In this document: in pieces, positions 3,281-30,782 of the stretch
Layout of the letters: each line of letters starts with the position of its first letter
How positions within the stretch are numbered: the stretch's first letter is position 1
Virus record (IMG/VR): IMGVR_UViG_3300024259_000108
Location: 1 to 31,333 of that record
DNA: 31,333 nucleotides
Reading direction: 5' to 3' (one strand)
Source: a virus
Notes under the pieces: generated by a model
The model's input: only the letters and a program-made list of their open reading frames with translations
What the model was told of the DNA's origin: nothing
Database searches by the model: none
Program-made: the position numbers and the translations under genes

Positions 3281-6200
3281 ATGTCAAAAAACACATTCGA
3301 GCAAATCGCAGCACAGCAATTGACAGATCCTGCGCATGACCCGCAATCAGATGACAAGAAAAATTTGGAGGGCATTCCAGTCACAGAGCCCAATCAGGCT
3401 GACATCAGCTTGTCGGGCATAACCGTACTCGGTTCATACCTCAACAATTACACAACATCTGGACGACGCCAGAACGGAACAGGCAACGAATTCTATCCAT
3501 CCTGGGAAGCATCAGAAGCCCCTTCACTGAATCGCCCGACCGGAAAAAAAGAGATTCAAAAAGAAGGCAAATCGTTTCTGCAGCAAGACGAGAACGCAAA
3601 AATTTCATCCGACGCCTTTTTCGATCCGAAAGATTTAGAAGAACTCCTAAGCAAAGACGGAAGCAAAGAAAGCCCGTCGGGTAATGAGCTACTCCACTCA
3701 GTTGAGGGGAACGACCACCCGTTAGTTAGGGCGGTCCTGGACAAGCTTACAAAAGACAACGTGTATACCCCTGAAGCGCACACGCAGTTCATCAAGGATA
3801 ACGGAACATCCAACGAAGAAATCGCAACCCGAGGCCTGTTCACAATTCAGCGTGATCTGGGATCATTCGTCCTGGATGGGAAGCAAGGAAAAAATGCGTC
3901 ATCGGGCCAACGTGTTCAAGTTTCAGATATGTCGAAGATGGCGCTTGCATTGCTTGCCAATAGCGTAGGAAACTACGGCGCAGCAAACTCTATCATGACA
4001 AATGGGACAATATCATTTCTTTCAATGAACCTTGCGAACCCTGTCGAGCAATTAGGCATCCAGGGAGTTAGTGTTGATCGCCTAAGGTTGAGCGGGCTTT
4101 ACAGTTCGAATCCAGATATTCGTAGGCTAATAGCCGGAGCAAAAGGCCAGAATGATCTGATAACAACACAGAACCAGACTAACCTAAACAATCGAGGCAT
4201 ATCATCTGACGGCGGGGCAGATCCAAAACTCCAATACTCTGCTTATAACGGTGTATCGCATTCTCAATTGAATTCATTCATGACGCCATTCGGTGGCCTT
4301 GTAGGCTCTGCAGGTATGCTGACGATCGCAATTGAAGGTGTTTTAGGGCTGCTCGCAATCTCGCTCTTGCTTTCAACGCTACCGAAAGGCGACACGAAGG
4401 ATTACATTGATCCAGAGAGTCCATGGCTATACGGATTGGGTTCGCACAGAAAAAATGAAACGACTGGAGCAACAACAATACTCTACGATCTCCTGCGAAT
4501 CACTGACACTGATTATGATTTCAAAAGCTGCGTTGAAGCTGGGATTCTATTGTTGCTTGGTTTCAACCCATCAGTAGGAAAAACAGGCCTGAAAGCTGCT
4601 CTTTCAAACCCGGCAAGCTTGGGTGTGTTCGCTGCAAATCTAGCGTTAAGCCCGTCGTATTACGCAAACCTGTTTCGACAAATCACCCGCGACACAAATG
4701 ACGTCGTTGCAGGTTTCAGAGAAATCGGAGGAACATATACAAGCGGCCTAACGTCGATGGCAACAGCTATAGATAAACTGGTAAACTCAAAGGCATACCA
4801 GTTTGTGATGATAGCAGCAGGTGTGGGAGATGCCGCCCTGAAGTCTATAAATGGCCAGCTCGATATGGGCACAACGAGTGTATTGTTTCGAAATCAAGAC
4901 ATCGTACCGGAACAACTCGAGGACAAGTCTTTGAAAAGCTTCAGGGCGATTGGCGAATGGCGCCGTCATGTCTCGAGATGGTCAGGTGGCAGAAACCCAT
5001 TGTCGTTACATACTTTCCCAGCGGCGATCGTTCGACAAACTGAAACAATCGGGCAGCCGACAATTAGATCATATAAAAAACCAAGTCGTCACGAGGTGGA
5101 ATCAATTGAAAATGATTTGGATGCAGAGTACATGCCATTCTATTTTCATGATCTGAGAACACACGAAATTATATCATTACCTGCATTTATCACACAATTT
5201 GATGAAAGTTTTAATGTGACATACAACTCAAACATCGGGTACGGCCGACAAGATCCTGTTCGAATCTACGATAACACAGAACGATCTATGAGCTTCGGCT
5301 TCAAGCTCGTCGCGTTTAATAAAGAGGATTTTGATGAGATGTGGTTTATGGTTAACAAGTTAGTAGCTATGTGCTATCCACAATATTCAAAAGGTCGCGA
5401 GCGACAATTCTCAGAAAATGGAACAGCATACAAATTCACGCAGCCATTTTCGCAAGTACCCGCTGCAAGTCCAATGATTCGTTTGCGCCTCGGTGATGTT
5501 CTGAGATCTAACTACAGCCTGAATTCGGCAAAGAAACTGTTTGGCGATTTGTCGATCGATGCTGCTGCGGAACGAAATGAATATGAAACTGCAAAAGCAA
5601 ACAATGTTGAGAAAGCAAGGAAGAAGTTTGATGGCGACAAGTTCGGTACAATGTTCAAGTACGGCAAACTCAAAGATCCTACTAAAACATTCCCATATAC
5701 AAGTCTCGGCGGTATACGGAAAGCAACATGGCCAGATTATGCCACCGTCAATTTTGTTCCAGCATCCTTCGCCGGCAAGTTTAATTTAGGGTCTATCATT
5801 CCCGGCACGAGAGATAACCAACGCGACGTAATTGCAAAGTCAACAACCGGAGCTGACAGGTATATTATAAAAATAACAGAAGCCGACCTGGCCTTTGACG
5901 TTGCATCTGCAAAAAAAGCAATATCATCTGATGTCGAAGCGGCGAAGCTAAAACTTGATGCCAAGCTAAAACAAACACAGTCACCGTCGAATACACAACA
6001 GGATGAGTTTTTCAATCCGGCGAATAATGCAATCATAAGATCGTTCAACTCCACACGAGGTAAGGGTCTTGCGGGTGTTATCACGTCGCTGGCGTTCGAT
6101 TACGGAACGTACCCGTATGAGATAACACCGGGAAGTAGAGCACCAAAAATGATTGACGTTTCTCTTGGGTTTGCGCCGATTCATGACTTACCACTTGGTT

Positions 6201-9709: not shown

Positions 9710-10825
9710 ATGGATTTATGTCTTCAAGTCAAAAATGATCTTCTTCGGGTCGGCAACGTTGCAGACGGTCTTGACGGGATTCTGACTCTCGATATGCTTG
9801 AGGAGTTCCTATCAATCGTTGACAATGAAAAGTACCAATTCGTTGGCGATGAAACGCTTGCCATGACGAGCACGCTTACAAACGACTCATCATTGTGGCC
9901 AGTCATGATTGCAAAAAAGAAGCGCGACGAAATTGTGGCTGCGTCACTTCGGGCTATGAAGCAGGCGATGAGTTTCGATGAAAATCAAACGTATTTGTCG
10001 ACGTGGTTGCAGGTTAGGGATTTCCTCGACAGCTTGCATAGGATCTATACAGTGCCGAAGCCATGGAGCGCAATCCGTCAAGAATCACAAATTATGAAAG
10101 GAAATGCATTCAAGGCATCAATTTTGACGGGAATTCTTCCAAGGGTGAAATACTCCACAGCAGGTTCGGCGACCGGCAGGCTAACGATTACCAAGGGGCC
10201 GAATTTCCTTGTTGCACCAGCAAAGTCAAGGAAAGCCCTCCGAGCTTCAAAAAGTGACTCGGATATCGCAATTATTGATTTTACGTCAATGGAGCCACGA
10301 GTTGCACTAATGTTGCTGCAACATGACATCGGGAACATGGATGTGTACGAGTATCTTATGGATGTCTGTGATATTTCCACTCGTCCTATCGCAAAACTTG
10401 CAACAATTTCGGCGTTGTATGGGGCATCAGAGCGTAGCCTCATAGAAACGGTGAAGTCAAAAAGTAAGGCGGCATCAGTCGTAGCAAACGTCAAGGCATT
10501 TTTTGATGTACCAAGTTTAGAGGGGATGCTAGAAGAGCAAGCCAGACAAGGTATGGTCAGGAATTTTTTCGGCCGACCTCTGCATGATGCGACAAAGACT
10601 GAAAGAGTAAGGGTAAACCACTACATTCAGTCGACAGCGGCCGAGTTGGCGGTGCTGTTATTTGCAAAGTTATGTGATGCAGTGCCATCGATGAAGCCTC
10701 AGCTGGTGATTCATGATGCCCTCATTGCTGAGATTCCAAAATGTGACATCGAAACATTGAAAACCGAGTTGGCAGCATTACAATTTGAAAACATAAAGTT
10801 TCCATCGACGCTGGCTATTGTTTGA
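9710..10825 (+). CDS. Miniature family A DNA polymerase (polymerase domain only)
   Basis: A 371-residue protein that aligns by motif with the Klenow polymerase domain only; there is no 3'-5' exonuclease domain and no 5' nuclease. Residues 1-150 would be the thumb. Then come ATGRL (154-158, R157 = Pol I R668), motif A DFTSMEPR (190-197, D190 = D705, E195 = steric gate E710), motif B RPIAKLATISALYG (225-238, R754, K758 and Y766 equivalents kept), NHYIQ (303-307, N845/Q849) and motif C VIHDAL (333-338, D336 = D882). Differences from Pol I: the F762 position is I233, the glutamate after the motif C aspartate (E883) is A337, and the A-to-B interval is about 14 residues shorter. Catalytic aspartates are kept, so it is probably active. 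It has its own leaderless-type promoter. Confidence 0.88.
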   Translation: MDLCLQVKNDLLRVGNVADGLDGILTLDMLEEFLSIVDNEKYQFVGDETLAMTSTLTNDSSLWPVMIAKKKRDEIVAASLRAMKQAMSFDENQTYLSTWLQVRDFLDSLHRIYTVPKPWSAIRQESQIMKGNAFKASILTGILPRVKYSTAGSATGRLTITKGPNFLVAPAKSRKALRASKSDSDIAIIDFTSMEPRVALMLLQHDIGNMDVYEYLMDVCDISTRPIAKLATISALYGASERSLIETVKSKSKAASVVANVKAFFDVPSLEGMLEEQARQGMVRNFFGRPLHDATKTERVRVNHYIQSTAAELAVLLFAKLCDAVPSMKPQLVIHDALIAEIPKCDIETLKTELAALQFENIKFPSTLAIV

Positions 10826-10833
10826 TATTTATA
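10824..10833 (+). promoter_or_regulatory. GATATTTATA promoter-like element
   Basis: GATATTTATA lies just after the polymerase stop codon and 17 bases before the ATG at 10851, followed by a ribosome site (GGAAAGGTGA). I see no -35 box at the usual distance. The same element occurs in front of the reverse-strand gene at 15790 and, as CATATTTATA, the homing endonuclease at 19859. The position suggests a -10 element of a phage-specific, possibly late, promoter class. Confidence 0.45.
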
Positions 10834-10850
10834 TGCGGAAAGGTGATACA

Positions 10851-11348
10851 ATGAACGACAAACTTGATGCGATGCTTTTAGAGGCGGTCGAAGATTTTCT
10901 ACATGAAGCAAAAGCCAATAAGAGCAAGGTCGACTGGCATGGTGCGTATGGCACTGGCGGTACCTTCGCCAAGGAGATTGCGTTTACGAAAGGACGAGCA
11001 GAAGCAGACCCAAAAGGCCTATTACGCGATCTCGGTGTAACTCAAAAAGCGGAAGGTAAGACGGATGCAATCAAAGCTGTTTCCGTTTTACAGCAAGCAA
11101 TTCGGTCGAACGAGATTATGGCAGAAGCTTACGGCGACTTCAAAAGAACACGTACGAAGAACTCGAAAGGCCAAGACGTCGAAGGATTCAGCATCTCGTT
11201 CGATGAAGACTTGAAACAACGGGATGCAACGAAGTATCTTGTTATTACGTTACGCGCAGCAGAGAACGGTGGCATTTTGAACCTCGATAAAGGCATCGGG
11301 TTTGCCAACGCCAAGCTGGTTTCGAAACCAACAATTTACGCAAAGTAA
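10851..11348 (+). CDS. Hypothetical 165-aa protein
   Basis: I choose the ATG at 10851 (MNDKLDAMLLEAVEDFL), preceded by GGAAAGGTGA, over an in-frame ATG at 10818, which would overlap the polymerase and the promoter-like element. The N-terminal 30 residues form a likely acidic amphipathic helix. The middle is Lys/Gly-rich (WHGAYGTGGTFAKEIAFTKG). The C-terminal part looks like a mixed alpha/beta domain (KYLVITLRAAENGGILNLDK). No signal peptide, membrane segment or cysteine is present. I do not recognise the family. Its ATATTTATA-type promoter, shared with other genes of likely late or special expression, sets it apart from the flanking polymerase and HD-like genes. Confidence 0.8.
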   Translation: MNDKLDAMLLEAVEDFLHEAKANKSKVDWHGAYGTGGTFAKEIAFTKGRAEADPKGLLRDLGVTQKAEGKTDAIKAVSVLQQAIRSNEIMAEAYGDFKRTRTKNSKGQDVEGFSISFDEDLKQRDATKYLVITLRAAENGGILNLDKGIGFANAKLVSKPTIYAK

Positions 11349-11383: not shown

Positions 11384-11956
11384 ATGGAAAACTTTGAAGA
11401 ACTAAAACAAACATACGCAAAATATTTGAGCTTTCTCAAGAAGTTCTTTCCCGAATCGAGTGATGCAATTGATTGCATGGAAGCCGACCTAGGAGAGAGA
11501 CTATTTCTTGCACCGAGAGACATAACCCCAGATTTGGGCGGAATTCCAGGAGGGTTGGTATCGTTTTCACTAAATGTAGCTAAACAGACGAAGATATTTC
11601 ACGAGGCCGTCAACCACAGATCGTTGGTACGGGTTGCCTTGCTTCATGAGTTGGGTCGAGTAGGCGGGCCGCATGCAGACTTGTTTGTGACAGAAACATC
11701 GGACTGGCATCGTGAGAAGTTGAATCGCAACTACAAATATAACGAAGCCTGCCCAAAAATGTCGTCATCTCATAGGACGCTATTCTACATCGCGAAATAC
11801 GGATTCAAGGTGACAATGGATGAATGGGTTGCAATCTTGACATCAGCCGGATTTCAATACGATGAGAACCGGTTTTATGCAAATGAGAACCTACCATTGG
11901 CCAGCGCGCTACAAATGTGCCGCACATTAACATTCAACGAAATGAAACAAAAGTGA
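11384..11956 (+). CDS. Degenerate HD-domain phosphohydrolase-like protein
   Basis: A 190-residue protein with the layout of a phage HD-domain family: GGLVSFSLNVA at 56-66, where relatives as I recall them have a metal-binding His (H-S-L-R-V); ALLHELGRVGG at 86-95, where relatives have L-H-D-L-G-K; then SDWHREKLNRNYKYNE at 106-121, SSHRTLFYIAKYG at 128-140, and LASALQMCRTLT at 172-183, where relatives usually carry H-x-A-D. Several metal ligands therefore appear changed (His to Phe, Asp to Glu, terminal His/Asp lost), so it may be inactive or bind rather than cleave nucleotides. The fold call is from motif pattern only. It is transcribed from its own strong, apparently leaderless promoter. Confidence 0.6.
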   Translation: MENFEELKQTYAKYLSFLKKFFPESSDAIDCMEADLGERLFLAPRDITPDLGGIPGGLVSFSLNVAKQTKIFHEAVNHRSLVRVALLHELGRVGGPHADLFVTETSDWHREKLNRNYKYNEACPKMSSSHRTLFYIAKYGFKVTMDEWVAILTSAGFQYDENRFYANENLPLASALQMCRTLTFNEMKQK

Positions 11957-12362: not shown

Positions 12363-13148
12363 ATGGCAGTTAATTTAGAAGCACTACGGAAGAAGTTGGC
12401 CCAATTGAATGGTGAGGGCTCTCGAAAGAATGCGTTCTGGCGACCTGAGAAGGGTAAGGAGTCCGTTGTACGACTCATCTCTTTCCCAGACAACGACGGA
12501 CAACCGTTTAAAGAACTTTGGTTCTACTACAACATCGGAAGCAATCGCGGCCTGTTGTCACCGAACCAGTATGGTAAGCCTGACCCAATTCAGGAGCTAA
12601 TCAACAAGCTACGTGCCCAGGACACAAAGGAAGGTTACGAGCTTTGCAAGAAGCTATACCCGAAAATGCGTTCATACGTTCCAGTCATCGTCCGCGGTGA
12701 AGAGGACAAGGGCGTTCGTTTGTGGGGCTTCGGAAAGCAGGTTTACCAGGACTTGATTTCCACAATGTTGGATGCTGACTTCGGCGATATTACCGACCCG
12801 AAGAACGGATTTGATGTCAAGGTTACTGTGACCCAGCCTGCTGGTCAGCAGTATGCAAAGACGACGCCTCGAGCACGACCTGTTCGTTCGCCGTTGAGCG
12901 ATGACAAGAAGCAAGCGAAGGAATGGCTCGACAGCATCCCGAATCTTGATGACCTGTTCACCTTGAAGAGCTACGATGAGTTGGAAAACATCATCAACGC
13001 GTGGTTGGAGAACCCAGACGACGAGGCGCCATCGGCTCCACGTCATGCCCCAAAGAAAGCTGAAGAGTCAGAGGACAAAGCAGATGATGCTAAGCCTTCG
13101 ACATTCCAAGAGCTGGACGACGCTTTCGCTGATTTAGACAACATGTAA
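12363..13148 (+). CDS. Single-stranded DNA-binding protein, T4 gp32-like
   Basis: A 261-residue protein with the gp32 layout: a basic N-terminal arm (MAVNLEALRKKLAQLNGEG) for cooperative binding, a central OB-fold core (about 20-190) starting with FWRPEKGKESVVRLISFP, and a flexible C-terminal tail after about 215 rich in Glu, Asp, Ala and Pro, ending FQELDDAFADLDNM. The acidic tail normally contacts other replication proteins. Only one cysteine is present (LCKKLYPKMRSYVP), so the zinc site of T4 gp32 appears absent. It coats single-stranded DNA during replication and recombination and is expected to work with the recombinase, helicase and polymerase in this window. A strong ribosome site and a downstream terminator suggest high, separately controlled expression. 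Confidence 0.92.
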   Translation: MAVNLEALRKKLAQLNGEGSRKNAFWRPEKGKESVVRLISFPDNDGQPFKELWFYYNIGSNRGLLSPNQYGKPDPIQELINKLRAQDTKEGYELCKKLYPKMRSYVPVIVRGEEDKGVRLWGFGKQVYQDLISTMLDADFGDITDPKNGFDVKVTVTQPAGQQYAKTTPRARPVRSPLSDDKKQAKEWLDSIPNLDDLFTLKSYDELENIINAWLENPDDEAPSAPRHAPKKAEESEDKADDAKPSTFQELDDAFADLDNM

Positions 13149-13248: not shown

Positions 13249-14484
13249 ATGGTAGTAAAAAAGAAAGCAACGCCGAGGAAAAAGAGGGCAACTAAGAAAG
13301 ATGCAGTAACTGAGGACTTTACAAAAGACCTAATCGCATCGCTGAACAAGGAGTTCGGTTCAAAGGTTGCATATAATTTGGGTACAGAGACTTCACCTAC
13401 ACATGTGAAACGGTGGATTCCTACTGGCTCCCGCCAGATCAATTATATGGTTTCAAACCGTCGCAACGGTGGGCTTCCAGAAGGTCGTATCATTGAGATT
13501 TTCGGTCCGCCTTCAATTGGTAAATCACACATCGCAACGCAGATTGCAAGATCGACCCAAGAGATGGGCGGGTTGGCTGTGTATATTGACACCGAAAACG
13601 CAACATCAGTTGAGAACCTGGCAATGTTGGGCATCGATATTTCAAAGCGATTCGTGTATGTCGACCAACATTGTACAGAAGATGTTTTGAAGACTGCCGA
13701 GTCAACGATCTTGAAAGCCAAGGCCATGAAAAAAGATGTGCCGATTACAATAATTTGGGACTCAGTCGCTGCCTGTTCACCACGAGAAGAGCTGGACGGA
13801 GACTACGACAAAAACTCAATTGGGCTTCAGGCACGAGCCATTTCAAAAGGTATGCGGAAAATCACCGGCATCATTGGCAGCCAAAATGTTCTGCTCGTTT
13901 GCCTAAACCAGACGAGAACGAAAATCGGTGTGATGTTTGGTGATCCGACAACAACACCCGGCGGAGCAGCGATTCCATTCCACTCGTCAGTAAGGATTAG
14001 GCTGGGAGCCGGTCAGCAAATCAAGGACAAGTCCGGTGATGTCATCGGCATCCATGTGTGGGCAAAGACAATCAAGAACAAGGTTGCCATGCCTTTCCGG
14101 AAAGTCAAATTCGAAATCCACTTTGGTAAGGGTATTTTTGAACATGAGCAGGTTTTTGATGTGATGCGGAAACACGGTCCAGAGGACATTGATGGGAAAA
14201 CCATATCAGTCAGCGGCGCCGGCGCAAGCAAAGATTTCATTGTCACCGACACAGAAACCGGTGAAGTCCTTATTGAAAAGAAGTTCTACAAATCAAAATT
14301 CAACAAACTTCTGGACAGTGACGAATATGGTCCATACCTTGCCGATTTATTCGATAAGATTTACGTGAAAACAATCATCAACCCACACGACATAGAAATC
14401 GACGAGAACTCATATGAAGAAGTCACAGCACTTGCTGATGAGCTTGGAGCTCTCGATCCTGATGCGCTAGAGGAAATTGTATAA
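13249..14484 (+). CDS. uvsX: RecA/UvsX-like recombinase
   Basis: A 411-residue RecA-superfamily ATPase. The first 20 residues are very basic (VVKKKATPRKKRATKKDA). Walker A is GPPSIGKS (86-93); Walker B is ITIIWDS (166-172, D171); a LLVCLNQTRTKIG segment follows, typical of the RecA L1/L2 region. The C-terminal part is acidic. It forms filaments on single-stranded DNA and pairs homologous strands, supporting recombination-dependent replication and repair, in competition and cooperation with the SSB encoded upstream. UvsX-type is preferred over bacterial RecA because of the phage neighbourhood, but the gene symbol is tentative. The downstream exonuclease ATG lies one base after the stop, so the two are probably co-translated. 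Confidence 0.9.
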   Translation: MVVKKKATPRKKRATKKDAVTEDFTKDLIASLNKEFGSKVAYNLGTETSPTHVKRWIPTGSRQINYMVSNRRNGGLPEGRIIEIFGPPSIGKSHIATQIARSTQEMGGLAVYIDTENATSVENLAMLGIDISKRFVYVDQHCTEDVLKTAESTILKAKAMKKDVPITIIWDSVAACSPREELDGDYDKNSIGLQARAISKGMRKITGIIGSQNVLLVCLNQTRTKIGVMFGDPTTTPGGAAIPFHSSVRIRLGAGQQIKDKSGDVIGIHVWAKTIKNKVAMPFRKVKFEIHFGKGIFEHEQVFDVMRKHGPEDIDGKTISVSGAGASKDFIVTDTETGEVLIEKKFYKSKFNKLLDSDEYGPYLADLFDKIYVKTIINPHDIEIDENSYEEVTALADELGALDPDALEEIV

Positions 14485-14485
14485 G

Positions 14486-15451
14486 ATGAACAAACCAGCC
14501 CACCAAGATCGCCCAATCTTGATTGTCGACTTCATGAACATGTTCATTCGACACTTCAAAGCGAATCCGTCCATGGCAACAACGGGGGAACCAGTCGGCG
14601 GAGTTATGGGCTTTCTTGGTGGGCTTGGGCGGCTGTGCGAAACATACAATCCCAAAAAGGTAATCGTTGTTTTCGAGTCAGGTGGAAGCCAAAGAAAACG
14701 GGCAATCTCGGCATCATATAAGAATGGTCGCAAGGCACCGAAAATGAACCGGTACTACGGCGATGATATTCCAACGACGCCTGAGAATTTTGCCATGCAA
14801 GTCCTATTTATCACCCGAGCTTTGAAATGCTTGCCGGTGACACAGGTGTACGTCAGTGGCTGCGAAGCAGACGACGTTATAGGTTACCTAGGCCGGTACC
14901 ATTTCAAGACGTCCAGGGTCATTCTGGTGTCTTCAGATAAGGATTTCTATCAGCTCATCGATGAACGAGTGCAACAATGGTCACCCGGACAGAAAAAACT
15001 GATTACAGAACAATCAGTTATAGACAAATTTGGTGTTTCGCCGCAGAATTTTTGTTCAGCTCGGGTGTTCATCGGGGATCCGAGTGACAACGTCCCGGGT
15101 GTCAAAGGTGTGGGCTTCAAGAATATGGCGAAGTGGTTCCCTCAATTGGGTGGGCCTGACTTCGTAAGTCACAATGATATTGTCGACAGCGCGGTCGAGT
15201 TGGCGGAAACGAAAGCAGCCAAAACGATCCATCGAATCGCAGAATCTAGGGATTTGGCATTGAAAAACTGGAAGCTGATTTACCTGGACACATCACAGCT
15301 CTCCGGGACCCAGATTCAAAAGGTAAACCACCAGATTGAAAACGAGGGAAAACCAAACAAAATGGAACTGATGCGCCAGCTAATACAGTCGGGCATGCAA
15401 AAGTTTGATATTGATAGGCACTTTCAGGCAATTACAGCGATTCGACGTTAG
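14486..15451 (+). CDS. 5'-3' exonuclease / flap endonuclease (FEN/PIN)
   Basis: A 321-residue protein starting at the ATG just after the recombinase stop, with GAGGAAAT upstream; an in-frame TTG at 14477 is less likely. Acidic metal-binding motifs of the family are present: ILIVDFMNMF (D15), CEADDVIGYLG (126-136; D129, D130), VSSDKDFYQL (148-157; D151, D153) and an H3TH-like segment GDPSDNVPGVKGVGFKN. The basic SYKNGRK segment fits the arch region. It removes RNA primers and 5' flaps, the job done in bacteria by the N-terminal domain of Pol I. Here that activity and the polymerase domain are separate genes. Confidence 0.9.
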   Translation: MNKPAHQDRPILIVDFMNMFIRHFKANPSMATTGEPVGGVMGFLGGLGRLCETYNPKKVIVVFESGGSQRKRAISASYKNGRKAPKMNRYYGDDIPTTPENFAMQVLFITRALKCLPVTQVYVSGCEADDVIGYLGRYHFKTSRVILVSSDKDFYQLIDERVQQWSPGQKKLITEQSVIDKFGVSPQNFCSARVFIGDPSDNVPGVKGVGFKNMAKWFPQLGGPDFVSHNDIVDSAVELAETKAAKTIHRIAESRDLALKNWKLIYLDTSQLSGTQIQKVNHQIENEGKPNKMELMRQLIQSGMQKFDIDRHFQAITAIRR

Positions 15452-15918: not shown

Positions 15919-17343
15919 GTGGCGGAATCGAAAAACAACTTCATGCAGGGAATCATAGACAATGCAAACAACGTACCATATTTTGCCCAGCATGGAAAAT
16001 CATTCCAAGAGAAAATCTTTCAAGGACTAATCTTTGATACTCCGTGGGCATCTCAAATGGTTGAGGTCATGCGCCCAAACTTTTTTGATGTCGAGTATCT
16101 CCAATTTCTAACTGAAAAGTACTTCCTGTATCACCAGAAATACAAGTGTTTCCCGACGTTGGGTTTGCTTGTCAACGTCATTCGTGATGAATTATCTGAC
16201 GGTGAAGACGACATCCTTCGTGACCAAATCATTGAGTTCTTGTTGCGGGTCAAGGCCAACCGGAACCCAGGAGACATCGCCTACGTCAAAGACAAGTCGT
16301 TGGATTTCTGTAAGCGACAAGCGTTCAAAGCAGCATTGGAAAAGTCTGTCACCTTGATTGAGGGTGATGGGTTCGAAGAAGTCATGGCTCTGATGAAGGA
16401 TGCCATTTCACTTGGTACTCCTCATAGTGTTGGTCACGATTTCTTCGAAGACCTTGAAGCCAGATTTATCAAACTAAATCGACATGCATGTCCGACAGGA
16501 TTCCCAATCCTGGATGCAAAGGACATTTTTGCTGGTGGGCTGGGTCGTGGTGAGATTGGAATCGTCGTTGCTAATACCGGCGTTGGTAAGAGTCACTGGC
16601 TGGTTGCCCTCGGTGCCAACGCCATGCGGGCCAAGAAAAACGTCCTGCACTACACATTCGAATTGTCTGAGACGAAAGTCGGTATTCGGTATGACAGCAA
16701 TCTTTGCGGACTTCCTTCAAACGACATCCAAGACAATATCGATTTGGTCAAAGAGGTCTACGAAAGCAAAAATCTCGGGCGCCTAATAATCAAAGAGTAC
16801 CCGACAGGAAGCGCCACGGTACAAACGTTGCGCAACCATATCGAGAAATTGTCACTGAAAGGCTTCAAGCCTGACATCATTCTTGTCGATTACGCCGACA
16901 TCATGCGTTCAGATCGTAAGTCAAGTGAACTGCGCCACGAGCTAAAGTTTATTTACGAAGAACTCAGAAATCTATCTATGGAATTAGACGTTCCTATTTG
17001 GACAGCGTCACAGGCAAATCGAGATAGTGCCCAATCGGACATTGTAGGTCTCGAAAATATGTCTGAAGCTTATGGAAAAGCAATGGTTGCTGATGTGGTC
17101 ATCAGCATCTCAAGAAAAGCAATGGAAAAATCAACAGGTGTTGGTCGTCTTTATATCGCAAAGAACAGAGCAGGTCGTGACGGAATCCTTTTTCCAATAT
17201 CAATTGACACATCAATGTCAATGTTTGAGATATTGGATGAGAACTCGTTGACACTTACTGAGACGGTACAACAAACCAATGGCAATGCCAAGGCAGCGCT
17301 TGCAGCCGCCTGGCAAAAAGTAAAAAGCGGAGAGGAAAACTAA
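15919..17343 (+). CDS. Replicative DNA helicase, DnaB/gp41-like
   Basis: A 474-residue protein. The GTG start has GAGG four bases upstream. The N-terminal domain (about 1-165) is helical. The C-terminal RecA-like core has Walker A ANTGVGKS (218-225), Walker B IILVDYAD (320-327) and a WTASQANR sensor-like motif at about 361-368. This is the layout of DnaB and T4 gp41 hexameric helicases that unwind DNA 5'-3' at the fork. It has no primase domain (unlike T7 gp4), so a separate primase would be expected elsewhere. It is followed two bases later by the ribonucleotide reductase ATG, so replication and dNTP supply are probably co-expressed. Confidence 0.9.
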   Translation: MAESKNNFMQGIIDNANNVPYFAQHGKSFQEKIFQGLIFDTPWASQMVEVMRPNFFDVEYLQFLTEKYFLYHQKYKCFPTLGLLVNVIRDELSDGEDDILRDQIIEFLLRVKANRNPGDIAYVKDKSLDFCKRQAFKAALEKSVTLIEGDGFEEVMALMKDAISLGTPHSVGHDFFEDLEARFIKLNRHACPTGFPILDAKDIFAGGLGRGEIGIVVANTGVGKSHWLVALGANAMRAKKNVLHYTFELSETKVGIRYDSNLCGLPSNDIQDNIDLVKEVYESKNLGRLIIKEYPTGSATVQTLRNHIEKLSLKGFKPDIILVDYADIMRSDRKSSELRHELKFIYEELRNLSMELDVPIWTASQANRDSAQSDIVGLENMSEAYGKAMVADVVISISRKAMEKSTGVGRLYIAKNRAGRDGILFPISIDTSMSMFEILDENSLTLTETVQQTNGNAKAALAAAWQKVKSGEEN

Positions 17344-17345
17344 TA

Positions 17346-19805
17346 ATGTTCACAAAAGAGGAGGTGCTGGCAGCATCACGCAAATATTTTCATGGCGATG
17401 AACTCGCCGCGACGGTCTTCACGACCAAGTATGCGATTACGGATAAAGATGGTGTCATCTGGGAAAATACGCCAGACGATATGCATCAGCGACTAGCCAA
17501 AGAGTTCGCACGAATCGAAAGAAAATATGACAACCCAATGAATGAGGCTGAGATCTTCAGGTTGCTTTCATCATGGGAGGTGGTGCCGCAAGGTTCCCCG
17601 ATGTCAGGTATTGGAAATGATCACCAACTTCAGTCACTCTCGAACTGTTTCGTTGTTGGTGCCCCAGAGGATTCATACGCAGGTATTCTCCACACTGACC
17701 AACAGCAAGTCCAGATAATGAAGCGTCGAGGTGGTGTCGGATTCGACATTTCAAACCTCCGCCCGAAGGGAATGGTTACATCCAACGCAGCCAGAACAAC
17801 CGACGGTCTTGCGATCTTTATGGAGCGCTTCTCAAACTCAACACGAGAGGTTGCTCAAGGGGGCCGACGTGGTGCATTGATGATTTCAATCGATATTCGT
17901 CACCCGGAGATTGAAACGTTCATCAACATCAAACGGAACCTCGACAAAGTCACCGGTGCCAATATTTCAATCCGCCTGACCGATGATTTCATGTTGGCAG
18001 CGGCAAACAACAAAAATTACACGCAACAATGGCCGGTAGACTCAGCGAATCCTGAGTGTGCAAAATCCGTCAGCGCCCGAAAAATCTGGGACATGATTAT
18101 TGATTCAGCATGGACGATGGCTGAACCAGGTGTTCTGTTCTGGGACAACGTAATCAAGAGCTCAATTCCTGATTGCTACGCTGATTTAGGTTTCAAGACT
18201 GAGTCATGCAACCCGTGTGCTGAATTGGTTCTTTGTCGTGATGACAGTTGTAGATTGCTACTCATCAACCTCGCCAAGTTCATCAAGAACGCATTCACGG
18301 GCCGAGCATACTTTGAGTGGAAACGTTTTGCGAAGGTGGTCCAACAATCACAACGTCTCATGGACGATCTGATTGATTTGGAGATTGAAAGCGTCGACAA
18401 AATCATCGCCAAGATCAAAGCTGATCCAGAGGACGCGAGTATCAAGGCTATCGAGTTGGATTTGTGGGAGCGAATCAAGAAGAAGGCTCTCCTGGGACGA
18501 CGAACAGGACTGGGTGTCACCGCGGTGGGAGATGCCATCGCAATGATGGGCATGAAATACGGATCGGATAAGTCGGTTATCGCCATCGGGGAAATCTACA
18601 AAACCCTCGGCATCAATGCTCACATTTCGTCATGCAAACTGGCCAAGGAACGAGGTGCATTCCCGATTTTCGATGCCGAGAGGGAAAAAGATCTTCCATA
18701 CTTGGCACGACTGTTGGTTTCAAACAAAGAGCTCGCCAGTCTGTACAAGAAATACGGTCGCAGAAATATTGCCCTGACGACAACCGCACCAGCAGGTTCT
18801 GTTTCAACAATGACCCAGACAACCTCTGGAATCGAGCCGGTCTTCATGCTCAAATACCGCCGCCGAAGGAAAATCACCCATGGGGAGAACCTCAAGGCTG
18901 ATTTTGTTGATGCGATGGGCGATGAGTGGGTTGAATACGACGTTTACCATCACATGCTCAAAAAATGGATGGATGTGACAGGTGACGATGACATCGAGAA
19001 TTCACCGTATTGGGGAGCAACAGCTCCGGAGTTGGACTGGGCACAACGTGTGAAAATCCAAGCCGAAGCCCAGAAGTGGGTCGACCACGGAATCTCATCG
19101 ACATGTAACCTGCCGTCTGACGTTTCAAAGGAAACGGTTCGTAAGATATACGAGGCAGCCTGGAAATCAGGATGTAAGGGTTTCACTGTTTATCGTGATG
19201 GTTGCCGAACAGGAGTTCTGGTTTCAACTGACGAGAAGAAAGATGAGACAAATTTCCCCGAGGTTTCCGCACCAAAACGACCCGACTCGCTTGCTTGTGA
19301 CATTCATCATGCATCGATCAAAGGGGAAAAATGGACGATCCTCGTCGGGCTATATAAAGATCGCCCATACGAATTGATGGGTGGATTGAGCAAGTACGTT
19401 GAGATTCCAGCCAAATATTCAACCGGGCGAATCATCAAGCACCCACGAAAAACGATGAACAGCGTTTACGACCTGAAGTTTGGTGAAAATGGCGACGAAG
19501 TTACGGTGAAGAACGTTGTGGATGCTTTTGAGAATGCAAACCACTCGGCGTTTACCAGGACGATTTCTCTCGCACTTCGACATGGTGCTGACGTGAAATA
19601 TGTTTGTGAGCAACTGACGAAAACGAAAGATTCAGACTTCACCAGTTTCAATAAGGTTATGTCACGCATCCTGAAGAAATACATTCAGGATGGAGCTGAG
19701 GTTGGCGGATCCCAGGTCTGCGAAAATTGTGAAGCAGAAGGTTCCCTGGTGTACCAGGAAGGATGTAAGACCTGCGCCGCTTGTGGAGTCTCGGCCTGCG
19801 GGTGA
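17346..19805 (+). CDS. nrdJ: Class II (B12-dependent) ribonucleotide reductase
   Basis: An 819-residue protein containing LSNCFVV near residues 99-105, MKRRGGVGFDISNLRPKG at about 126-143, the ESCNPCAE loop near 285-292, and a C-terminal cysteine cluster (CENCEAEG at 792-799, then GCKTCAACGVSACG) that recycles the active-site disulfide. This C-terminal pattern and the lack of an adjacent NrdB-like small subunit are typical of adenosylcobalamin-dependent NrdJ. It makes deoxyribonucleotides from ribonucleotides with no need for oxygen and depends on host B12. No intron or interruption is visible, although a homing endonuclease gene follows. It is probably in one operon with the helicase. Confidence 0.92.
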   Translation: MFTKEEVLAASRKYFHGDELAATVFTTKYAITDKDGVIWENTPDDMHQRLAKEFARIERKYDNPMNEAEIFRLLSSWEVVPQGSPMSGIGNDHQLQSLSNCFVVGAPEDSYAGILHTDQQQVQIMKRRGGVGFDISNLRPKGMVTSNAARTTDGLAIFMERFSNSTREVAQGGRRGALMISIDIRHPEIETFINIKRNLDKVTGANISIRLTDDFMLAAANNKNYTQQWPVDSANPECAKSVSARKIWDMIIDSAWTMAEPGVLFWDNVIKSSIPDCYADLGFKTESCNPCAELVLCRDDSCRLLLINLAKFIKNAFTGRAYFEWKRFAKVVQQSQRLMDDLIDLEIESVDKIIAKIKADPEDASIKAIELDLWERIKKKALLGRRTGLGVTAVGDAIAMMGMKYGSDKSVIAIGEIYKTLGINAHISSCKLAKERGAFPIFDAEREKDLPYLARLLVSNKELASLYKKYGRRNIALTTTAPAGSVSTMTQTTSGIEPVFMLKYRRRRKITHGENLKADFVDAMGDEWVEYDVYHHMLKKWMDVTGDDDIENSPYWGATAPELDWAQRVKIQAEAQKWVDHGISSTCNLPSDVSKETVRKIYEAAWKSGCKGFTVYRDGCRTGVLVSTDEKKDETNFPEVSAPKRPDSLACDIHHASIKGEKWTILVGLYKDRPYELMGGLSKYVEIPAKYSTGRIIKHPRKTMNSVYDLKFGENGDEVTVKNVVDAFENANHSAFTRTISLALRHGADVKYVCEQLTKTKDSDFTSFNKVMSRILKKYIQDGAEVGGSQVCENCEAEGSLVYQEGCKTCAACGVSACG

Positions 19806-19858: not shown

Positions 19859-20863
19859 ATGATCAAGTGCAAAGAATGCAAAAAAGGATTCAAGGATAAT
19901 TTAGGCGGACAGCTAACTACTCATCTCCGCAAAGCCCACAAAATGGAAATGGTCGATTACGTCATTAAGCACAAGCTTGATGGCAAACCACCAAAGTGCA
20001 TTTGTGGGCTTTGCGATCTGCCTCCTGCATTTGCCAGGGGTGTGTTCAAGAGATATGCTCTTACTCACGACAAATTCAAGACAAGAGAAAAACTCTATAT
20101 CAAAAAGTATGGCAAGCCCAAATGTAAGGAGAAGTCCTGCAAGAAGGCTGTGACTTTCGTCCGTGGCAAACCAAAATCGTATTGCTCACAAAGGTGCTCC
20201 GGACTGAACGCCGGCTTTTCACTAAAGAAAACACAAGAAAAAATCAAGAAGGTCGTGAAGAAGAAGTACGGTGTCAAAAACGTCGGGCAGCTTCCCCATA
20301 TCGCCAAAGGTTCATCCAAGAAGATGAAAGCTAGGTGGGCAAAAGGTGAAGTCGTCATGGACGAGACCTGGAAGAAAGCGATAGGGAAGGGTTCAAAACG
20401 AAATTGGAAAAAGGAATCATACAGGAAGAAACAAGCGCACTGGAGAAAAAACAGAACCCCGGCGCAAAAAGCAGCGACATTACGTAAGATGTTCGCCGGT
20501 TCCAAAAACAGGTTGTCAAAGCTCCACCAACGCCTCCGGAAAGAGCTCGGCCTGACAAAACTGGGCTTTGTATCAGAGCAACGAGTGGGCGCCTACTTTG
20601 CTGATGAGCTCAACGAAAAGAAAAAGGTCATTGTCGAAATCAATGGTGATTATGTCCATGCCAACCCGAAACTCTATGAAGCCAAATTCAATGTGCGCCT
20701 TCGGGGCCAATCGTTTCTTGCTGAAGAAAAATGGGCTGCCGATGCCAAACGAAGTGAAAACTTACGACGAATGGGATACACTGTTATAGTGGTTTGGGAA
20801 TCAGACGACATCGAAATGAAACGACAGGAAATAAAGAATGTTATTGACACAAGAACGATTTGA
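19859..20863 (+). CDS. Free-standing homing endonuclease, zinc-finger plus Vsr/EDxHD-like nuclease
   Basis: A 334-residue, very lysine-rich protein. An N-terminal C2H2-type zinc finger (C4, C7, H22, H27) is followed by two more cysteine pairs (CICGLC near 48-53; CKEKSC and CSQRC near 81-120). The middle holds a KKKYGVKNVGQLPHIAK segment like the DNA-recognition repeats of phage homing enzymes. The C-terminal domain (about 255-320) has VIVEINGDYVHANP, then WAADAKRSENLRRMGYTVIV and VWESD, the pattern of Vsr/very-short-patch-repair-related homing nucleases (I-Bth0305I type). It presumably cuts phage DNA lacking the gene and spreads by recombination. Its position right after nrdJ is typical of such insertions. 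Confidence 0.82.
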   Translation: MIKCKECKKGFKDNLGGQLTTHLRKAHKMEMVDYVIKHKLDGKPPKCICGLCDLPPAFARGVFKRYALTHDKFKTREKLYIKKYGKPKCKEKSCKKAVTFVRGKPKSYCSQRCSGLNAGFSLKKTQEKIKKVVKKKYGVKNVGQLPHIAKGSSKKMKARWAKGEVVMDETWKKAIGKGSKRNWKKESYRKKQAHWRKNRTPAQKAATLRKMFAGSKNRLSKLHQRLRKELGLTKLGFVSEQRVGAYFADELNEKKKVIVEINGDYVHANPKLYEAKFNVRLRGQSFLAEEKWAADAKRSENLRRMGYTVIVVWESDDIEMKRQEIKNVIDTRTI

Positions 20864-27957: not shown

Positions 27958-27994
27958 AAACATGTTCCCGGGGACGATACAAAGAGGTCAACTA

Positions 27995-29230
27995 ATGCGT
28001 GTTACAGATATTTTGAATGCAGTGAATGAAACCAAAGGCACAAATGCCAAACTGGACATTCTACGAGCCAACGGCGACAACGAGACACTGAAGCGTGCTT
28101 TGAAGCTGAGCCTTGACCAGTCGATTCAATTCTGGGTCAAGAAGGTTCCGAAGATTAACCTTCGCATTGACGTGAAACACCCACGGACCGATGCCGAAAT
28201 TTGGGAGCTGCTTTTCAACGTGCTGGAAATGTGCCAGGCACGAGAGCTTACTGGCAACGCAGCCCGCGACGCCATCTGCAACGTGCTGGTTCAGGTCACC
28301 CCAGAAGATGAGTACTGGATGCGCCGTCTGATTCAGAAGAAATCGGCCGTTGGTATCGCACGAACGACCACGAACAAGGTCTTTCCCGGGCTCATCACGA
28401 CATTCAAAGTCCAGCTTGCGGACAAGTGGAACGAGAAAACAGCCAAGAAGATGCCGAAGAACGTTTTCCTTGAGCCAAAGCTTGATGGAATCCGGTTGCT
28501 TTCAATCGTACGGGACGGCGCATGCGAATCGTATGCCCGCTCAGGTAAACGAATCAGCAATTTCGATGATACCATCGGCGCCCAATTGGCGACGTGGCCG
28601 GAGGGTGTGTACGACGGCGAGGTTATGGATGAAGATTTCACTGCTTTGATGCGTCAATACCGTCGCCAAACCGGTGCCAACGTTTCGAAATCGTACCTGA
28701 CCATTTTCGACTATGTCACCCTGGAAGAGTGGGACAATCGAAAAGGTGTCGCAACAATGCGGGAGCGTCGTGAGTGGCTTGAATCACTGTTCGACAACGT
28801 TGGTTCTGACAACATCTTCCTCATCGAGCAACAGGAAGTTGAAAAGTCAATGGATGCAATCGCATCACATCAAGCCCATTGGGAATCGCTGGGTTTCGAA
28901 GGTGCCATGGTCAAAAGCCCAGACGCCGTCTACAAGTTCGGTCGCTCACATGACATGCTGAAGGTGAAGTCCTTCATCGACATCGATCTTGAGGTCATCG
29001 GTTTCAAGGAAGGAACCGGCAAGAATGTTGGAAAACTTGGCGCTGTGTGGGTCGACCACAATGGTGTCGAGGTGAAAATTGGTTCTGGTTTCGATGACGA
29101 ACAACGTGTCGAGATTTGGAATAACAAAGACGATTTCCTGGGCATGACTGCAGAATGTCGATACCAGGAAGAGACGGAGGATGGTTCGCTTCGCTTCGGC
29201 ACCTTCGTTTGCTGGAGGCTTGATAAATGA
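27995..29230 (+). CDS. ATP-dependent DNA ligase
   Basis: A 411-residue ligase. I choose ATG 27995, with AGAGGTCAACTA upstream; an in-frame ATG at 27962 lies at the expected transcription start and lacks a ribosome site. Motif I is EPKLDGIR (160-167, nucleophile K162). Further motifs: VYDGEVM, GFEGAMVKSP and LKVKSF. A helical N-terminal domain (about 1-150) and a C-terminal OB-fold (after about 330, starting DIDLEVIGF) complete the T4 gp30-like layout. It seals nicks in DNA using ATP, joining Okazaki fragments after the 5'-3' exonuclease and polymerase have acted. The next gene overlaps by ATGA. Confidence 0.93.
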   Translation: MRVTDILNAVNETKGTNAKLDILRANGDNETLKRALKLSLDQSIQFWVKKVPKINLRIDVKHPRTDAEIWELLFNVLEMCQARELTGNAARDAICNVLVQVTPEDEYWMRRLIQKKSAVGIARTTTNKVFPGLITTFKVQLADKWNEKTAKKMPKNVFLEPKLDGIRLLSIVRDGACESYARSGKRISNFDDTIGAQLATWPEGVYDGEVMDEDFTALMRQYRRQTGANVSKSYLTIFDYVTLEEWDNRKGVATMRERREWLESLFDNVGSDNIFLIEQQEVEKSMDAIASHQAHWESLGFEGAMVKSPDAVYKFGRSHDMLKVKSFIDIDLEVIGFKEGTGKNVGKLGAVWVDHNGVEVKIGSGFDDEQRVEIWNNKDDFLGMTAECRYQEETEDGSLRFGTFVCWRLDK

Positions 29231-29975: not shown

Positions 29976-30262
29976 TGTCGCAAAAATGGGTAAACATCAT
30001 CGGAAGGATGCCAAAGAAGGGCGATCTAGTAAGGCTCACCCAGCTTATGCTATCATCGAAGAGCTATCACGGTCAAACAACATATAGGTGTGATCGTGAT
30101 GACAGAGGCCCAGCATTGTGCTCAGGGGTAATACGAGATCCCGATGCGAAATATGTAACATTACAATTTCACGATCGGATGGAATGGTTTTTCTTTGAAG
30201 AAGATAAAGACAAAAGACCCTTCGCGAAATATGAATTAGGAGTAATAGAGAATGAAAAATGA
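29975..30262 (+). CDS. Small-barrel hypothetical protein, 95 aa
   Basis: Starts in a TAATG overlap. RMPKKGDLVRLTQLML near residues 9-24 is the module in its clearest form, followed by CSGVIRDPDAKYVTLQFHDR and MEWFFFEEDKDKRPF. The order (barrel entry, strand with small insertion, aromatic closing strand) matches the 26999 product. It overlaps the macro-domain gene by 11 bases. Function unknown. Confidence 0.7.
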   Translation: MSQKWVNIIGRMPKKGDLVRLTQLMLSSKSYHGQTTYRCDRDDRGPALCSGVIRDPDAKYVTLQFHDRMEWFFFEEDKDKRPFAKYELGVIENEK

Positions 30263-30782
30263 AATCAAGTATGTCAACGGCGACGCCACAAAACCAATCG
30301 GTGAAGGCACGAAACTAATCACGCATATCTGCAACGATATTGGCGGGTGGGGCCGCGGATTTGTCCTGTCTTTATCGAAGGAACATCCTGCTGCAGAAAC
30401 TGCGTACAGAAGCTGGTATCAAGGAAACCCTCCTGAAGCTCATCTAGGCCAGCCTCGTCTGAGTCTGGGCGAAGTTCAATATGTTGAATCATCTGACGGA
30501 ATCACGGTCGTAAACATGATTGCACAGCATGGCATCTTTACGAAAGATGCCATCCCGCCGATTCGTTATGATGCCTTAGCTTCCTGCTTATCAAAGGTTG
30601 CTGCATATGCAGGTGTCATGCATGCCTCAGTTCACATGCCTCGAATTGGTTGTGGTCTGGCTGGCGGCAAATGGTCAGAGATTGAGAAAATCGTGAATGA
30701 AGAGTTGATCGCCAAGGGCATCGAAGTTTACGTGTATGATTTCGACACCCAGGATGCCCGCACAATCCCGTGGAAAAAGTAA
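30252..30782 (+). CDS. Macro-domain protein, Poa1p/ADP-ribose-phosphatase-like
   Basis: A 176-residue macro domain with no extra domain. Seen: YVNGDATKP (7-15), ICNDIGGWGRGFVLSLSKEH (26-45), VVNMIAQHGI (86-95) and HMPRIGCGLAGGKWSEIEKI (128-147). This pattern is that of the Poa1p/ALC1-type group, which hydrolyses ADP-ribose-1''-phosphate or removes ADP-ribose from macromolecules. In phages such proteins can recycle RNA-repair products or counter ADP-ribosylating or NAD-based defences; which applies is unknown. The SLOG and PLD-like proteins nearby are possible functional partners. TAATG couples it to the next gene. Confidence 0.88.
   Translation: MKNEIKYVNGDATKPIGEGTKLITHICNDIGGWGRGFVLSLSKEHPAAETAYRSWYQGNPPEAHLGQPRLSLGEVQYVESSDGITVVNMIAQHGIFTKDAIPPIRYDALASCLSKVAAYAGVMHASVHMPRIGCGLAGGKWSEIEKIVNEELIAKGIEVYVYDFDTQDARTIPWKK

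Follow-up and report, generated by a model that had tools for sequence, protein, structure and literature searches.

Short exonuclease-free family A DNA polymerases of uncultured phages: a proposed accessory role beside DnaE

Introduction

The window analysed here, which is the entire IMG/VR record IMGVR_UViG_3300024259_000108 of 31,333 bases, encodes a family A DNA polymerase (PolA) without a proofreading domain, and this raises the question of what function such a reduced enzyme can have in a phage. The preliminary description of the locus considered either a low-fidelity or specialised enzyme, or the main replicase with proofreading supplied by another protein. The results presented below support a specialised exonuclease-free family A enzyme and speak against the main replicase. 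The features on which the analysis is based are collected in Table 1.

Table 1. Features of the window; residues in brackets are the E. coli Pol I equivalents
Feature	Position	Strand	Basis
Short exonuclease-free family A DNA polymerase (PolA), 371 aa	9710..10825	+	PF00476, residue mapping, AlphaFold2, clade conservation, dN/dS
R157 (R668), TGR element	10178..10180	+	Kept in 75/75 members with the column filled
Motif A, D190 to R197, with D190 (D705), E195 (E710), R197 (R712)	10277..10300	+	D, E 76/76; R 72/76
Motif B, R225 to G238, with R225 (R754), K229 (K758), I233 (F762), Y237 (Y766)	10382..10423	+	R, K, Y 76/76; position 762 L 45, I 27, M 4
Motif C, H335 (H881), D336 (D882), A337 (E883); HDE to HDA	10712..10720	+	H, D 76/76; A 72, S 2, C 1, E 1
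Protein of no assigned family after polA, 176 aa from TTG	10818..11348	+	Matched in 29/79 related loci
190-aa protein between polA and SSB	11384..11956	+	Matched in 51/79 related loci
gp32-like single-strand DNA-binding protein (SSB)	12363..13148	+	PF08804 3e-12, phrog_1192 8e-22
UvsX/RecA-type recombinase	13249..14484	+	PF00154 4e-62, phrog_97
Stand-alone 5' nuclease (FEN)	14477..15451	+	PF02739 2e-30
DnaB/gp41-type replicative helicase	15919..17343	+	PF03796 3e-20, phrog_19 1e-71
Ribonucleotide reductase (RNR)	17346..19805	+	PF02867 6e-85
ATP-dependent DNA ligase, candidate sealing partner	27962..29230	+	PF01068 1.3e-15, PF14743 1.1e-14

Results

Identity and predicted fold

The polA frame runs from an ATG to a stop codon, and its product matches the Pfam model DNA_pol_A (PF00476) over residues 147–355 with 46.4 bits (E 3.5e-12; curated cut-off 34.3 bits), while the Pfam search found no domain besides DNA_pol_A in the protein. 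An AlphaFold2 model based on a 47-row family alignment (pLDDT 93.8, pTM 0.92) has the Taq large fragment (3po4_A) as its top structural match, with a Z score of 24.1 and an rmsd of 4.0 over 342 residues, and also matches the fold of the Bst large fragment. The predicted fold is that of the right-hand Klenow polymerase domain and takes up the whole modelled chain, in which a 3'-5' exonuclease domain would not fit. Because the structural alignment begins at Taq residue 304, ahead of the polymerase domain proper, one might guess that the N-terminal residues are a shrunken exonuclease-domain remnant. By profile, catalytic residues and predicted fold, the protein is a family A DNA polymerase, as first described.

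The sole close relative of the window, G001, is a syntenic contig of 96.6 kb with about 83–86% nucleotide identity, and its polA gene also encodes 371 residues, 91% identical to those of the window. The dN/dS ratio of polA between the two is 0.053, similar to that of neighbouring genes, and polA is under purifying selection. With this 91% identical copy, the low dN/dS and 278 relatives in IMG/VR, the gene is real far beyond chance.

A clade of polymerase-only enzymes

Scans of IMG/VR with the single protein or a two-row alignment yielded one relative only, and the family was opened through a DnaE search followed by a nine-row PolA alignment. A profile built from distant members then identified the 278 relatives, 80 of which were kept. 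Their identity to the window PolA across the alignments ranges from 19 to 91%; PF00476 is matched at E 0.001 in 45 of the 47 aligned relatives, and no domain other than DNA_pol_A was found in the 47. All 71 complete polA genes have open frames of 353–427 codons, and hence a fused exonuclease is present in none of them. An exonuclease hidden from view by a frameshift, a sequencing error or an intein was rejected, the relatives being of constant length. An apparent intein was seen elsewhere, in a 1020-aa protein at 3557–6619 of L004, a portal by position and start, which has a Hint-like segment (CIAGDTLIATPTGFVEI) and HNH-like stretches.

No cultured phage was found inside the clade. In tblastn searches of INPHARED phages, the window PolA and member L098 had no match, and member L057 had only partial matches of 24–27% identity, e.g., to a 609-aa mycobacteriophage PolA. 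Two homologues reside on short contigs binned as Bacteroidota, which gives a weak hint at the host.

Active-site residues in the window and in the clade

When numbered by alignment against E. coli Pol I, the window PolA retains the TGR arginine, motifs A, B and C (Table 1) and the N-x3-Q element, where N303 and Q307 correspond to N845 and Q849, again in agreement with the preliminary description. The alignment also confirmed the deviations noted there: isoleucine at the F762 position, HDA instead of HDE in motif C, loss of the QN pair (the E. coli segment PNLQNIP reads PNFLVAP), and a shorter segment from motif A to motif B, with D190 and R225 spanning 35 residues compared with 49 in E. coli. 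These residues had been called altered. The alterations are real, but they are not unusual; judged from the aligned sequences, I233, HDA, the lost QN and the short A-to-B segment are the norm of the clade and not peculiar to the window gene. Similarly, it had been stated that position 762 in viral enzymes is usually Phe, Tyr or Leu, and Ile does fall outside the F/Y/L set of a viral PolA survey (PMC9069017), but within the clade it is common (27 of 76).

Eight residues (D705, E710, R754, K758, Y766, Q849, H881 and D882) are invariant in 76 different sequences. The IMG/VR profile scan was selected on motif A or a QS(T/S) segment and conservation there is partly by construction, whereas the counts for R668, motif B and motif C are unaffected by this selection; moreover, an 11-row set reached through DnaE, without selection on any PolA motif, keeps the same catalytic set. 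In one sub-clade (L044, L045, L046 and L042, from G010, G009, G003 and G015, respectively), the motif A arginine (R712) is replaced by Cys or Asn.

The gene cluster around polA

Nearly all loci that are long enough show the same gene order: tail genes, polA, one or two small genes, SSB, UvsX, FEN, DnaB, RNR and ClpP. Within the same loci, polA diverges faster than its neighbours, with mostly 25–47% identity compared with 61–77% for UvsX (best local segments). The FEN gene, 3.7 kb downstream of polA, matches residues 3–263 of the Pol I model (2.9e-44) and is the counterpart of the Pol I N-terminal domain. With polA, a FEN gene and a ligase gene, the components needed for nick translation are therefore encoded individually.

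Of the two small proteins following PolA, the first has no family match in Pfam or PHROG and may start later, at about position 10846. The second likewise belongs to no known family and has no PHROG match; it contains an HD-like stretch (LLHELGRVGG) and is a candidate partner of the polymerase. Two further genes of the window were noted in passing. A DUF559-type nuclease-like gene at 19859–20863, between RNR and the next gene, is absent from this place in G001 and is probably a mobile insertion of the homing endonuclease type, and the protein encoded at 30252–30782, which G001 has as well, resembles a macro domain (ADP-ribose binding) in its sequence.

The position of polA directly upstream of SSB and UvsX might also suit a recombination or lesion-bypass polymerase that extends UvsX joint molecules, or performs low-fidelity synthesis across damage, and is not mainly engaged in Okazaki fragment maturation. 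The lack of a proofreading domain and the non-aromatic residue at position 762 fit such a role, E. coli Pol I is known to participate in Red recombination (PMC3686724), and inactivated Pol I exonucleases have been discussed in connection with error-prone repair (PMC12926913). However, FEN adjoins polA as constantly as UvsX does, and sequence predicts neither bypass nor error rate. A Fapy-DNA glycosylase gene, at 67756–68538 in G001, occurs in 9 of the 22 relatives, which points in the direction of damage processing, but it is not universal. On balance, we regard this alternative as unlikely. The same glycosylase indicates that some phages of the clade may themselves encode a step of excision repair; a general base-excision-repair set was considered and rejected, given its presence in those nine records only.

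DnaE as the probable replicase and proofreader

In G001, a DnaE protein of 1185 residues with PHP, DNA_pol3_alpha, finger and HHH domains is encoded 31 kb downstream of polA. With this DnaE as query, 16 further contigs were retrieved, 11 of which also carry the short PolA, the five others being 21–66 kb long. Conversely, DnaE is present in 17 of the 41 PolA contigs of at least 26 kb, always on the same strand and 16–31 kb downstream, and in 16 of 16 contigs that extend at least 33 kb beyond polA. The 24 PolA contigs without DnaE have at most 30.7 kb downstream of polA. The window ends 20.5 kb after polA, and from its relatives we infer that its own genome carries DnaE beyond the end of the fragment. 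Two contigs, G047 and G050, have no DnaE although 28–31 kb follow polA. The corresponding loci, L110 and its near duplicate L112, show an isolated polA surrounded by tail genes of opposite direction, and the distance rule is therefore not applicable there.

In every complete DnaE copy the PHP site has the residues HHDHEHCDH, and the aspartates of the polymerase site are conserved. According to a 2026 survey (PMC12926913), HHDHEH[C/H]DH identifies PHP domains with active proofreading; the nine site residues match this motif, and the most likely proofreader is the PHP domain of DnaE. A family B polymerase was found in none of 22 records, with the Microcystis phage Mel-JY01 detected as positive control; among 18 records, no Pol I-type exonuclease gene was found, and a DnaQ-type exonuclease only in one divergent contig, G012. 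The search for a family B polymerase or a stand-alone DnaQ-type exonuclease, which the preliminary description had called for, was thus negative among these relatives apart from this contig. Proofreading by another protein holds insofar as DnaE most likely provides it, but not in the form proposed, with another protein serving a PolA replicase.

A family A polymerase serves as the replicase in many phages, and the closeness of polA to the helicase and SSB genes would be in line with the short PolA being the main replicase, assisted by a proofreading protein. That reading we consider very improbable, since DnaE is encoded in the closest relative and in every long enough contig, a stand-alone DnaQ is confined to the single divergent contig, and polA is the fastest-diverging gene of the cluster.

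Counterparts in cultured and related phages

Flavobacterium phage immuto, Mel-JY01 and the uncultured phage LR756508 carry the same gene module. In immuto, gp001 (441 aa, annotated as DNA polymerase family A) precedes the genes for SSB, recombinase, 5'-3' exonuclease and helicase, and a second family A polymerase, gp199 (777 aa), has the exonuclease motifs DTET and YAAAD by reading. Mel-JY01, which carries a family B polymerase, has a 408-aa short PolA-like gene (PP395634.1, 50397–51623) annotated as hypothetical. Another Mel-JY01 gene, at 55792–56832 of PP395634.1 (10793–11833 of L134), is annotated as DNA polymerase I and matches the window FEN (E 3e-56), i.e., it is the 5' nuclease part only.

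The clade profile finds the Mel-JY01 protein at E 2e-10 and gives a weak match to immuto gp001 (E 0.02–0.06). This weak match, the 27% match between the Mel-JY01 protein and gp001, the tree and the gene position suggest that gp001 is kin to the window clade. In the tree, all short PolAs and these counterparts split from six full-length references with an SH-aLRT value of 98, which, in a quick tree with long branches and so few references, lends weak support to a single origin.

As for the window PolA, the counterparts are located upstream of SSB, recombinase, FEN and DnaB, and have alanine at the E883 position. They differ in a longer N-terminus, in the accompanying replicase, which is of family A (immuto) or B (Mel-JY01) and not DnaE, and in the replacement of E710 by His, R754 by Tyr and H881 by Tyr; they may thus work differently from the clade enzymes. 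The slot is kept while the replicase family changes, which argues for an accessory role. At the same time, these losses imply that a normal polymerase is not necessarily required in this slot, and together with Ala at position 883 in 72 of 76 clade sequences and the shortened fingers they could indicate a weakened or non-catalytic family member that is kept for binding, e.g., to present gapped DNA to FEN or ligase. For the clade itself this seems improbable to us: both metal-binding aspartates, R668, E710, R754, K758, Y766 and Q849 are invariant, which would be needless in a non-catalytic protein, and polA evolves with the dN/dS of 0.053 given above.

Discussion

Proposed role of the short PolA

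From the features described above we infer an enzymatic activity, its substrate and a division of labour, and suggest, with a probability of roughly 0.6, that the window PolA is a functional accessory gap filler of the Pol I type, which cooperates with FEN and ligase, encoded as separate genes, and operates alongside a DnaE that proofreads by itself. The activities of Pol I would in these phages be split or absent, with the polymerase provided by polA, the 5' nuclease by the FEN gene, and no 3'-5' exonuclease. Bulk copying would fall to the phage DnaE, which would proofread by its own PHP domain and work with the DnaB helicase and gp32-like SSB. The short PolA would act with FEN and the phage ligase to fill the short gaps where Okazaki fragments end, and would probably also fill gaps that result from recombination (UvsX) or excision repair. 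This proposal is favoured because the core Klenow residues are invariant (n = 76), the gene is under purifying selection, and the model matches the Taq and Bst folds. The role is taken to be accessory because DnaE is also encoded, FEN, SSB, UvsX and DnaB adjoin polA in nearly all loci, the slot outlasts a change of replicase, and polA diverges faster than UvsX in the same loci. Against it, HDA and the reduced fingers might lower catalytic activity, and the replisome as described here is partial, with no primase, clamp or clamp loader among the genes identified. Low fidelity of the short PolA is possible.

In a broader perspective, the short PolAs may represent a widespread polymerase-only class of family A (L/I/M762, HDA) that holds a fixed place within the cluster for recombination and primer processing in a large clade of uncultured T4-like phages, while related phages have swapped the replicase among families C, A and B; we hold this to be about evenly balanced between true and false. 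If true, the window clade would be the phage equivalent of the bacterial two-polymerase system, with a PHP-proofreading DnaE and a Pol I dissected into separate genes. The shortcut by which a phage PolA is equated with the phage replicase fails for a broad environmental group, in which PolA looks accessory and DnaE the replicase. Since the viral survey mentioned above (PMC9069017) restricted position 762 to F, L or Y, Ile and Met members would drop out of its filter; clusters in PMC6302109 bear labels of the same three residues. The clade furthermore offers a natural test of which Pol I features (E883, QN, exonuclease) are dispensable when the rest of the active site is fixed, and a supply of small predicted polymerases of about 370–410 residues that lack an exonuclease.

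Comparison with known polymerases

As for bacterial Pol I (PolA1, e.g., E. coli Pol I and Taq), the window PolA has the polymerase-domain fold and catalytic residues and a proposed role beside Pol III. Unlike PolA1, with which it shares about 18% identity, it has no fused FEN-like 5' nuclease, which is instead encoded by the separate FEN gene, and it lacks the DnaQ-like 3'-5' exonuclease domain; Ile for F762, Ala for E883, the absence of QN and 14 fewer residues between motifs A and B are additional differences. The Klenow-type phage enzymes (T7 gp5, mycobacteriophages, PolA3) are likewise phage-encoded family A polymerases with helicase and SSB nearby, and some of them (Bananafish, immuto gp199) share L762 and the motif A E-P with the short clade, but the references have an N-terminal exonuclease region, with an intact 3'-5' exonuclease domain typical of PolA3, and 609–777 residues, whereas the clade has polymerase-only frames with HDA. 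PolA2/APEX of Actinobacteria is similar in being a family A enzyme without working proofreading and accessory to Pol III, but it retains an inactivated exonuclease domain and a QxxLF clamp motif (PMC12926913); the window PolA has neither, QxxLF being absent from its 371 residues.

A split replicase, in which a family A polymerase is combined with a separate exonuclease gene, was not found in the window clade, where 18 records gave no Pol I-type exonuclease gene and a DnaQ-type one in a single divergent record. Rhodothermus phage RM378, considered as a possible case of a split family A polymerase, was rejected as a precedent; its 522-aa "DNA-directed DNA polymerase" has the family B motifs SLYPS and YSHTDS, and the clade profile gave no convincing match to RM378. 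Our literature search found no paper describing these short PolAs, and none of the three types in the bacterial survey (PolA1, PolA2 and PolA3) is described as missing the whole exonuclease domain (PMC12926913). Phages with both Pol III and PolA are known in Caulobacter phage CcrRogue and Sphingobium phage Lacusarx (PMC5648845); the PolA of CcrRogue is full-length (748 aa) and lies outside the short clade, and the feature shared with the window clade is the presence of families C and A together. The pairing of Pol III with PolA in phages is thus already known, whereas the polymerase-only form of PolA, as judged from sequence comparison, is outside the published PolA1, PolA2 and PolA3 types.
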